DNA from: Anaerolineae bacterium
GTDB lineage: Bacteria > Chloroflexota > Anaerolineae > Anaerolineales > Anaerolineaceae
Assembly (NCBI GenBank): GCA_013178095.1
Contig: JABLXK010000004.1
Location: 1-64,000, forward strand
Direction of reading: 5' to 3'
Length of the DNA stretch: 64,000 bases
The position numbers and the translations under genes were made by a program. The notes beneath the pieces are model-generated. The model did no database searches and was not told the DNA's origin. It saw only the letters and a program-made list of their open reading frames with translations. Below are positions 32,908 to 35,913 of the stretch, piece after piece. Each line of letters starts with the position of its first letter. Position 1 is the first letter of the stretch.

Positions 32908-32981
32908 GCCCTCGTAGCGCAACTGGACAGCGCATCGGACTTCTAATCCGGCGGTTGTGGGTTCGAGTCCCACCGGGGGCG
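32908..32981 (+). tRNA. tRNA-Arg (anticodon TCT)
   Basis: GCCCTCG acceptor pairs with CGGGGGC; anticodon arm TCGGA-CTTCTAA-TCCGG; T-arm TGTGG-GTTCGAG-TCCCA; CCA not encoded. Confidence 0.95.
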
Positions 32982-33096
32982 CTATTTATTTAACATCAGG
33001 CGGCCGCGGGTTTCCTCTGCGAGGACAGGCGAGTCCCACCGGGGGCGCTATTTTATTAACATCAGGCGGCTGCGGGTTTCCTCTGCGAGGACAGGC
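32965..33096 (+). repeat. Two tandem ~66-bp direct repeats; the first copy begins inside the tRNA-Arg T-arm; degenerate remnant follows to ~33130
   Basis: GAGTCCCACCGGGGGCGCTATTT(A/T)..TTAACATCAGGCGGC(C/T)GCGGGTTTCCTCTGCGAGGACAGGC at 32965-33030 and 33031-33096, then GATCCCCAAAGGGTTTAACATTAGACGGCC. Confidence 0.92.
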
Positions 33097-33248: not shown

Positions 33249-33277
33249 TTGACAATTTCGTGTTTTGGTGCTAAATT
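33249..33277 (+). promoter_or_regulatory. Predicted sigma-A/70-type promoter for the riboswitch-controlled S8 protease transcript
   Basis: TTGACA (33249-33254), 17-nt spacer, TAAATT (33272-33277), about 25 nt before the first aptamer. Confidence 0.7.
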
Positions 33278-33302
33278 AATAGCAGAAAATTAAAAATAGA
33301 GA

Positions 33303-33388
33303 CCGACAAAGGCAAAACCAGCGAAAGCTGGCGACGCAAAGCTATGGGTCTACAGTTGCTATGGCAACCACGACCGCCAGGCCGCCGA
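33303..33388 (+). ncRNA. Cyclic di-GMP-I (GEMM-I) riboswitch, copy 1
   Basis: GGCAAAACCAGCGAAAGCTGGCGACGCAAAGCTATGGGTCTACAGTTGCTATGGCAACCACGACCGCCAGGCCGCC: GNRA-capped hairpin, GACGCAAAGC core, GGGTCTA and GAC-GCCAGGC receptor segments of GEMM-I RNAs. Confidence 0.93.
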
Positions 33389-33412
33389 AATTCTGATGAT
33401 AATTCCCTGCGG

Positions 33413-33440
33413 ACCTGGTATAAAGCCAGGTTTTTATTTT
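33413..33440 (+). terminator. Intrinsic terminator downstream of riboswitch copy 1
   Basis: ACCTGG-TATAAAG-CCAGGT followed by TTTTATTTTT. Confidence 0.8.
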
Positions 33441-33476
33441 TAATCAACGGAAGATGATGTAGTTTAAAAACAGAAA

Positions 33477-33562
33477 GCGATAAGAGCAAAGTCAGCGAAA
33501 GCTGGCGGCGCAAAGCCACGGGTCTACAGTTGCTGCGGCAACCATGACAGCCAGGCCGCCGA
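33477..33562 (+). ncRNA. Cyclic di-GMP-I (GEMM-I) riboswitch, copy 2
   Basis: GCAAAGTCAGCGAAAGCTGGCGGCGCAAAGCCACGGGTCTACAGTTGCTGCGGCAACCATGACAGCCAGGCCGCC; nearly the same core as copy 1. Confidence 0.93.
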
Positions 33563-33599
33563 AATTCTCATTTCATCGATCCCTCACATCTAAAATGCG

Positions 33600-33638
33600 G
33601 ACCCGTGCATGTGCTACGCAGCTCGGGTCTTTTTGTTT
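33600..33638 (+). terminator. Intrinsic terminator downstream of riboswitch copy 2
   Basis: GACCCG...CGGGTC followed by TTTTTGTTTT, directly before the protease ORF start. Confidence 0.75.
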
Positions 33639-33651
33639 TGGGATGTGGAAG

Positions 33652-35913
33652 ATGATGAAAACAATTGAAAAATGTTCTGCCAAATGGCTTCAACGCGGCC
33701 TGATCGCTGTAATTATTCTTATGTTTTTTCTCACCACCGGAGTCGTGAACGTGCAGGCGCAGGAAGAAAATCCGCCTGAGCATCCCGGCGAGTCAGCACC
33801 TTCGGAGGAAGGCCAACAACCGCCAACGCAGATTCCTGAAGTCCTGCCTACCGAAACCCCTGAACCCACTTTAACGCCCACACCAACTTTGACCTTCACT
33901 CCCACCCTGCCAATCACCACAGAAACTTCTGAACCCGTTGAACCTACCCAATCTGATGCCAATTACGTTTTGGACCAACCGATGGGAATACCAACCCTGC
34001 CGGTGGAATATACAGCTGAACCAACGATCACTCCAACTGAAACCCCCACCCTGGAAGCCTCGCCCACCGCCGGGGATTTAGCGCCGCTGCTCATACCAAA
34101 GGGCGGGCCTATTCAGACTGGTCAATATATTGTAGTTTATAAATCCAGCTACAAAGTATCCAGGCACGAAACCGAAATCAAGGGTCGTATCAAGGAAAGG
34201 GGCGGCAGAGTCAAGCGGGTTTTCAGTAAATCGCTCAATGGTGTGTCCGTCAGTTTGGATAACCAGGCATTGAAAGCAATGCGTGAAAATCCGGACGTTG
34301 CCTATATCGAAGCGGATATGGTGATCAATGTGGACGAAGCACTGCTTTCAGCCAGCGCCATTCAAACCGGGGCAACCTGGGGCCTGGACCGTATCGATCA
34401 AGTCAGCATCCCCTTGAATGGGACTTATCAGTACCAGGCTTCCGGCGCGGGTGTCAACGTCTATGTCATTGACAGCGGTATTCTCTCCACCCATTCCGAA
34501 TTCGGCGGGCGGGTCAACCTGGCTTTTGACAGCGTCGGGGACGGCCAGAATGGGACTGATTGCCAGGGGCATGGCACGCATGTAGCCGGTATTATCGGAG
34601 GCAACACGTATGGGGTTGCCAAGAACGTCAATCTTTTTGCAGTACGGGTTTTAAACTGCAGCGGCTCCGGAACAACCTCGTCTGTGATCGCCGGCATCGA
34701 TTGGGTGACACAGAACCACAGCGGCCCTTCGGTGGCTAACCTCAGCCTGGGCGGGTCATCCAGCACCGCGCTTGATACGGCGCTTAATAACATGATCAAC
34801 AACGGCGTGATTGCGGTCGTTGCAGCCGGAAACGCGAATAATAATGCCTGCAGTTATTCGCCGGCGCGCGTTCCGAACGCCATCACGGTGGGATCGACCA
34901 CCTCTGATGACGTACGTTCCAGTTTTTCCAACTACGGCAGCTGCGTGGATATATTCGCCCCCGGATCAGGAATTAAATCGGCTATTGCGTCCAGCGACAG
35001 CGCAACAGCCTCCATGTCGGGAACTTCCATGGCTTCGCCGCACGTAGCCGGCGTAGCAGCGTTGTATCTGGAAGAACACCCCGGCGCTTCAGTGGGAAGC
35101 GTTACCGACGCAATACTCTCCAACGCCTCGAGCGGTGTAATCTCGGATGCAGGTTCCGGTTCTCCTAACCGCCTGGTCTATTCCCTGTTCGCAACCAGCG
35201 CAATCCCTGAAGATCAACCCACTCCAACCAAAACGCCGGTGACTCCTGTCTCGACCGAAGAGCCGGCAGCCGAAGTCCCCACTGCCGAACCCACGCGCAC
35301 ACCTACCAGAACCGCAACGCCATTACCAACCGTCAGCATCCCAAGCAAAGTGACCTCGCTCAGCCCATCTGGAAATATCTATGAAATTCAACCTTTCCTG
35401 GTGTGGGAAGCCATTCCCACCGCGATAAGTTATCATCTACAGCTTTACCGCAGCTCAACCCGTCTGGTCAATCTGGAAGTTCCCGCAACCGTATGTAATG
35501 GCGAATATTGTTTCTATCAACCTGACTCACCTTTGACAAAATACACCAAGTACAAATGGCGCGTGCGCGCCTTGGTAAATGGCGTTTGGACCAAATTCAA
35601 TGCTTTCACGGTTTTCAAATTGCTCAAACCCATTCCAACCTTGATATCTCCGCGCACCACCATCCAGGATATCCAACCAGTCTTTGTCTGGAAGAATATT
35701 CCGGTTGCCGATTATTACCAATTTGAGATTTATGATGGTTATGTTCTAAAATATATTGCCACCCTCGACCAGGATGATTGCGACGAAAGCCAGTGCGCTT
35801 ACCAGCCTGAAGCGGATTTAGTGACCAGGAAATACCGTTGGCGTGTCCGCGCCTATGCATACGATGCCTGGGCAGCTTACAGTTCATATTCAAAATTTAA
35901 AATTTCAAAGTAA
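33652..35913 (+). CDS. Secreted subtilisin-like S8 serine protease with I9 propeptide, Pro/Thr-rich linkers and two C-terminal FN3-like repeats
   Basis: D/H/S triad VYVIDSGI, GHGTHVAG, GTSMASPHVAG; I9-like GQYIVVYKSS...SLDNQALKAMRENPDVAYIEAD. Upstream codons 33544-33651 lie in riboswitch/terminator RNA. Confidence 0.93.
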   Translation: MMKTIEKCSAKWLQRGLIAVIILMFFLTTGVVNVQAQEENPPEHPGESAPSEEGQQPPTQIPEVLPTETPEPTLTPTPTLTFTPTLPITTETSEPVEPTQSDANYVLDQPMGIPTLPVEYTAEPTITPTETPTLEASPTAGDLAPLLIPKGGPIQTGQYIVVYKSSYKVSRHETEIKGRIKERGGRVKRVFSKSLNGVSVSLDNQALKAMRENPDVAYIEADMVINVDEALLSASAIQTGATWGLDRIDQVSIPLNGTYQYQASGAGVNVYVIDSGILSTHSEFGGRVNLAFDSVGDGQNGTDCQGHGTHVAGIIGGNTYGVAKNVNLFAVRVLNCSGSGTTSSVIAGIDWVTQNHSGPSVANLSLGGSSSTALDTALNNMINNGVIAVVAAGNANNNACSYSPARVPNAITVGSTTSDDVRSSFSNYGSCVDIFAPGSGIKSAIASSDSATASMSGTSMASPHVAGVAALYLEEHPGASVGSVTDAILSNASSGVISDAGSGSPNRLVYSLFATSAIPEDQPTPTKTPVTPVSTEEPAAEVPTAEPTRTPTRTATPLPTVSIPSKVTSLSPSGNIYEIQPFLVWEAIPTAISYHLQLYRSSTRLVNLEVPATVCNGEYCFYQPDSPLTKYTKYKWRVRALVNGVWTKFNAFTVFKLLKPIPTLISPRTTIQDIQPVFVWKNIPVADYYQFEIYDGYVLKYIATLDQDDCDESQCAYQPEADLVTRKYRWRVRAYAYDAWAAYSSYSKFKISK

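Follow-up and report, generated by a model that had tools for sequence, protein, structure and literature searches.

Two complete GEMM-I aptamers stand in succession in the leader of a single protease gene, which raises the question as to whether both read the same cyclic dinucleotide and whether ligand binding turns the gene on or off. The window in which the locus lies comprises positions 1-64000 of contig C18 (64,000 nucleotides), in an assembly of 2.94 Mb that is 94% complete; the features of the leader and of the gene are collected in Table 1.

Two aptamers, two terminators and a subtilase gene

In a whole-genome search with the covariance model RF01051 (cut-off 35 bits), copy 1 scores 73.7 bits and copy 2 scores 69.8 bits, and the spacing between the two is 174 nt. 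The initial annotation had described tandem GEMM-I switches at this spacing, with separate terminators, ahead of an S8 protease, and had named this search as a check; both copies match, and terminator folds and a Peptidase_S8 domain bear out the rest. The tandem arrangement is real, correctly located and of an already known kind: 347 c-di-GMP-I doublets have been counted (PMC9481103), and in these, as in Bc3-5 of Bacillus thuringiensis (PMC4759541), at least two complete GEMM-I switches with terminators of their own precede one gene. Bc3-5 are ON switches, whereas the leader described here is predicted to be OFF and its two pockets are unlike each other (G20 and A20).

When the whole window is scanned with cmscan at curated cut-offs, copy 2 is reported as RF01051 (33475-33563, 69.8 bits, E 1.3e-11) and copy 1 is labelled with a clan mate of that family, RF03167 or c-di-GMP-I-GGC (33302-33390, 63.6 bits, E 1.1e-12). 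Although copy 1 thus exceeds the RF03167 cut-off of 59 bits, its assignment to the GGC class was rejected; the consensus of that class has G at position 47 (GACGCGAA) where copy 1 reads GACGCAAA, that is A47, and copy 1 gains more bits with RF01051. The two copies are 84-85% identical across aptamer plus flanks and belong to a 108-nt direct repeat (33290-33397 and 33464-33571, 85% identical); this degree of identity points to a local duplication as the probable origin of the pair.

The gene behind the leader encodes a subtilase with a Peptidase_S8 domain (155.9 bits, cut-off 21.8) preceded by an I9 propeptide (30.3 bits, cut-off 21.2). The D, H and S motifs are readable in the open reading frame as VIDSG, GHGTHVAG and GTSMASPH, and the closest solved structures by sequence are those of keratinase, aqualysin and proteinase K. 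The protease is probably secreted, judging from an N-terminus that by eye resembles a signal peptide. The two candidate start codons lie 13-16 nt beyond the T-run of terminator 2, the last T of which is at 33639. Relatives possess S8 homologues of this protease; a family-wide RF01051 search found no GEMM-I aptamer beside them and no orthologous leader, so that GEMM-I control of this particular protease looks like a local acquisition. Elsewhere in the family other S8 proteases sit behind single GEMM-I aptamers (L148, for example), and GEMM-I control of subtilases would thus appear to recur.

Upstream of copy 1, the promoter proposed in the initial annotation was located, its second hexamer preceded by TG; as the 700-nt region holds three promoter-like sites where 0.9 are expected, this consensus match is only suggestive.

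Table 1. Coordinates within the window of the features of the protease leader and gene.
Feature	Position	Strand	Remarks
Promoter-like site, TTGACA-N17-TAAATT	33249-33277	+	Consensus match only; TTGACA 33249-33254, 17-nt spacer, TAAATT 33272-33277
GEMM-I (c-di-GMP-I) aptamer, copy 1	33301-33389	+	G20 at 33311, A47 at 33338, C92 at 33385 (Vc2 numbering)
Predicted antiterminator 1, aptamer strand CCAGGCCGC	33377-33385	+	Pairs with 33409-33418; minimum-energy fold
Predicted antiterminator 1, 3' strand GCGGACCUGG	33409-33418	+	Overlaps the 5' arm of terminator 1
Intrinsic terminator 1 with T-run	33411-33443	+	Hairpin 33411-33433; fold z -1.8
GEMM-I aptamer, copy 2	33475-33563	+	A20 at 33485, A47 at 33512, C92 at 33559 (Vc2 numbering)
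Possible antiterminator 2, P3 strand CACGGGUCU	33517-33525	+	9 pairs with GGACCCGUG (33599-33607)
Intrinsic terminator 2 with T-run	33599-33639	+	Fold z -3.5; 1 of 200 shuffles equally stable
Protease gene start	33652-33913	+	ATG at 33652 or 33655; signal-peptide-like N-terminus (by eye), Pro/Thr-rich linker
S8 subtilase, proteinase-K-like	33655-35913	+	I9 propeptide, C-terminal extension

Terminators, antiterminators and the direction of control

Each aptamer is followed by a hairpin and a T-run, as had been noticed from the letters alone; the second of these terminators, whose stem is interrupted, escapes a simple terminator scan. Both terminators start 20-35 nt past their aptamers and have no base in common with them, a layout that speaks against an ON switch, in which the bound aptamer would block the terminator.

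What could compete with terminator 1 is a pairing that runs back into the aptamer. In the minimum-energy fold of copy 1, the 3' strand of the predicted antiterminator, within which GGACCUGG also serves as the 5' arm of terminator 1, pairs with an aptamer strand and occupies the ligand-site base C92. This fold is computed at -47.0 kcal/mol, compared with -37.9 kcal/mol when aptamer and terminator form together, and before the 3' arm of the terminator is made the corresponding values are -40.4 and -27.7 kcal/mol; between 2% and 8% of shuffled sequences reach the pairing energy (0.023 and 0.078 in the two controls). In the family and order, 33 GEMM-I aptamers have behind them a terminator whose 5' arm is of the YYYGG type and could pair with the CCARG conserved in the aptamer; covariation of the copy 1 type of antiterminator within this set is marginal (p about 0.05), and over 71 loci pairing with the own downstream arm is, as a distribution, better than pairing with a swapped one (KS p 0.005).

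The closest parallel is Cd1 of Clostridioides difficile (PMC9262584), an established OFF switch in which aptamer and terminator coexist and the antiterminator opens the ligand site; Cd1 is a single copy before flagellar genes, whereas the switches described here are tandem and precede a protease. Terminator 1 likewise has as its competitor a pairing by which the ligand site is opened, and c-di-GMP should hence turn the protease OFF through copy 1; this direction, on which the initial annotation was silent, is moderately supported. For copy 2 the same direction is weakly supported. Its free fold is nearly isoenergetic, with the terminator (-55.9) slightly favoured over the antiterminator (-55.4), and the energy of the candidate antiterminator is no better than in shuffled controls; copy 2 may therefore terminate regardless of ligand or switch in some other manner.

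The converse arrangement, in which the ligand blocks the terminators and c-di-GMP induces the protease, has precedents, many GEMM-I riboswitches being ON switches (Bc3-5, PMC4759541; pilM, PMC9262584). A possible further case lies in the same genome, where a single GEMM-I aptamer before a gene for a degenerate-GGDEF/EAL protein (L201, G000:C17:289163-290100) has a terminator that starts 2 nt downstream and can overlap P1; this aptamer is possibly an ON switch and may exert negative feedback on c-di-GMP. For the protease leader, however, c-di-GMP induction is rather improbable, given the distance and the separateness of its terminators and given that, of the alternative pairings found, the sole strong one disrupts the aptamer and leaves the terminator alone.

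Position 20 and the ligand of the second copy

With G20, A47 and C92, copy 1 has a pocket of the c-di-GMP type. Copy 2 keeps A47 and C92 but carries A20 instead of G, which appears in the cmscan alignment as a mismatch directly before GCAAA. The initial annotation, correct in its count of two GEMM-I aptamers, took both to bind c-di-GMP; by sequence this holds for copy 1 only, and the substitution that sets the pocket of copy 2 apart had been overlooked.

The literature assigns to this base a graded role. A20 marks the GEMM-I riboswitches that prefer cGAMP, and an aptamer with this change gains affinity for c-AMP-GMP as judged by in-line probing (PMC9481103). Position 20 is treated as a selectivity factor and not a hard filter; cGAMP riboswitches are reported to be able to bind c-di-GMP via a protonated adenine, and in Cd1 an A at this position does not abolish c-di-GMP binding, the exchange of G for A being without large effect (PMC9262584). 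Bc3, Bc4 and Bc5, on the other hand, responded less strongly to c-di-GMP once the G of the predicted binding site had been changed to A (PMC4759541); G11 of Bc3 is, by our reading of its number, the equivalent of G20. The ligand favoured for copy 2 is thus c-di-GMP, presumably bound more weakly and less selectively than by copy 1.

The genome contains 15 GGDEF-domain matches and one EAL, and with so many GGDEF matches c-di-GMP is very probably made by this bacterium. The model that can be put forward with moderate confidence is therefore one of two OFF switches for the same messenger. Local duplication would have equipped the leader of the protease mRNA with two complete GEMM-I riboswitches; without ligand, the strand that would form the 5' arm of the terminator would pair back into the aptamer and RNA polymerase would read through, and upon binding the aptamer would keep its own strands, the terminator would form and transcription would stop. 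Production of the protease would then require that neither switch be occupied, a state expected at low c-di-GMP. The high-affinity c-di-GMP sensor would be copy 1 (G20), and copy 2 (A20), most likely a weaker binder of c-di-GMP with relaxed selectivity that could also accept 3',3'-cGAMP, would add a threshold above that of copy 1 or make the shut-off tighter. Under such a model a probably extracellular protease of an Anaerolineaceae bacterium would come under direct cyclic-dinucleotide control and be off at high c-di-GMP. A part for this control in biofilm life or dispersal, as the initial annotation had it, is conjectural and drawn from general c-di-GMP biology.

Two thresholds, cooperation between sites of equal affinity and a gate for two ligands are all compatible with the sequence. 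Were the affinities of the two copies similar and A20 neutral, the tandem would only steepen the response to c-di-GMP, as tandem c-di-GMP-I switches have been reported to do (PMC4759541); this would agree both with the tolerance of Cd1 and with the free interchange of A20 and G20 among relatives. In an orthologous switch before a sortase gene, three genomes have A at position 20 and all others have G. This reading is unlikely in view of the weakened responses of the mutated Bc3, Bc4 and Bc5, and a copy 2 of lower affinity is preferred.

A gate for two ligands would have copy 1 respond to c-di-GMP and copy 2 to 3',3'-cGAMP; if both are OFF switches, either messenger would suffice to shut off the protease, and its expression would need the absence of both (NOR logic). 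In its favour, copy 2 has at Vc2 position 20 the base known to favour cGAMP (PMC9481103), as do the c-AMP-GMP riboswitches (GEMM-Ib) of Geobacter and of the Desulfobacca cluster (PMC9262584, PMC9481103). Moreover, 4 of the 12 GEMM-I aptamers in the genome carry A20, its second tandem also runs from G20 to A20, and A20 of a single aptamer before a DUF3048 gene is kept in 3 of 4 genus members. In contrast to the GEMM-Ib systems, however, there is here no recognised cGAMP synthase, and the predicted direction is OFF rather than ON. The serine of the Hypr signature (PMC7288161, PMC6456294) is seen in none of the genome's 15 GGDEF matches; wherever an alignment is possible the Asp at the site of PleD-D344 is retained, and the remaining matches are degenerate. 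No SMODS/DncV-type cyclase was found in the 94% complete assembly, from which a cGAMP synthase could be absent for that reason, and the GGDEFs that are readable in six relatives include no Hypr form.

The survey of position 20 points the same way, since the base flips between orthologous switches. Doublets in the rest of the order comprise 15 GG, 4 AG and 1 GA, plus one GC and one triplet; mixed doublets are common there in either sequence of bases and resemble independent draws. A published catalogue of two-ligand tandems is, moreover, without any pair of c-di-GMP and c-AMP-GMP (PMC9481103). Taken with the missing Hypr and SMODS enzymes, this survey lowers the two-ligand gate as the main reading to a very unlikely one, and a single ligand, c-di-GMP, sensed at two sensitivities is favoured over it. 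Should it hold after all, one aptamer would have been duplicated and one pocket base changed, and an unrecognised cGAMP synthase would be implied in the Anaerolineaceae. The frequent exchange of A and G between orthologous switches of relatives that have no recognised cGAMP synthase counsels caution against naming a cGAMP riboswitch from A20 alone.

That copy 2 is a decaying duplicate with no switching role, regulation resting with copy 1, would suit its duplicate and lineage-specific origin, its changed pocket base and a free fold slightly toward the terminator, but is most improbable for an element that scores 69.8 bits, retains A47, C92 and the GAAA loop, is followed by its own stable terminator, and bears a base found in 18 of 129 intact GEMM-I aptamers fetched from relatives in the family. 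A G20 and an A20 aptamer, 84% identical and placed in one mRNA, offer a natural experiment on the role of this pocket base.

Position 20 in a sortase leader, and further GEMM-I loci

The second GEMM-I tandem of the genome (L193, G000:C18:95889-95634, minus strand) precedes a gene with a sortase domain and likewise has G20 followed by A20. In the sortase leaders of this genome and of relatives, positions 19 and 20 of the last aptamer lie in its 5' strand CGAYAARRGC, and this strand has its complement in an element that directly precedes the ribosome-binding site (in this genome GAUAAGAGC and GCUCUUAUC; in the relative G064 GACAAGGGC and GCCCUUGUC). Nine pairs hold in 9 of 9 distinct sequences, a percentage paired that is inflated by the choice of register by eye from a duplex search (slid controls pair 40-53%); the informative part is the two-sided changes, three of the pairs covarying, that at position 20 among them (A-U in 3, G-C in 4, G-U in 2). 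The covariation score was reached by none of 500 shuffles. This pattern supports a putative translational expression platform for the sortase and shows, at the level of sequence, that position 20 can be tied not only to the choice of ligand but also to the expression platform.

Bacillota, too, have G20-then-A20 doublets (Paenibacillus, Vallitalea, Clostridium and others; L217, L219, L221, L228, L242, L244, L250, L252, L254, L255); the pattern used to search for them required A in second place and hence yields no frequencies. A bias of order, G first and A second, hinted at by this genome and by the Bacillota, was considered and rejected, the order-level sample of doublets being against it.

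Several minor observations concern neighbouring or related loci. Within the window, a 66-nt direct repeat (32964-33095, 95%) carries the 3' end of a tRNA-Arg(TCT) gene (32908-32982) and may be either a simple duplication or what remains of an integration site. At L094:1258-1475, two nearly identical GEMM-I aptamers that face one another make up a near-perfect inverted repeat near a contig end, which may be an assembly artefact. A two-hit GEMM-I locus, L332, is oriented opposite to its neighbours.

Relatives finally contain arrays of three GEMM-I aptamers that abut one another (gaps of 0-2 nt or otherwise short) with no terminator between them: L232:6491-6757, L256:620-883 (minus strand), L309/L328, L311/L329, L317/L333, L152/L330 and L096/L331. 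A common outer stem closes the arrays (in L232, UUUGCACU pairs with AGUGCAAA), and a strong terminator stands behind them; in L329 and L333 a guaB-like gene flanks the array on one side and a ruvB-like gene on the other. Several aptamers may here share a single platform in one switch, or the array may be a free-standing RNA that binds c-di-GMP. The abutting three-aptamer form was not found in the tandem surveys PMC9481103 and PMC12452182, and these arrays may be more novel than the protease tandem itself.
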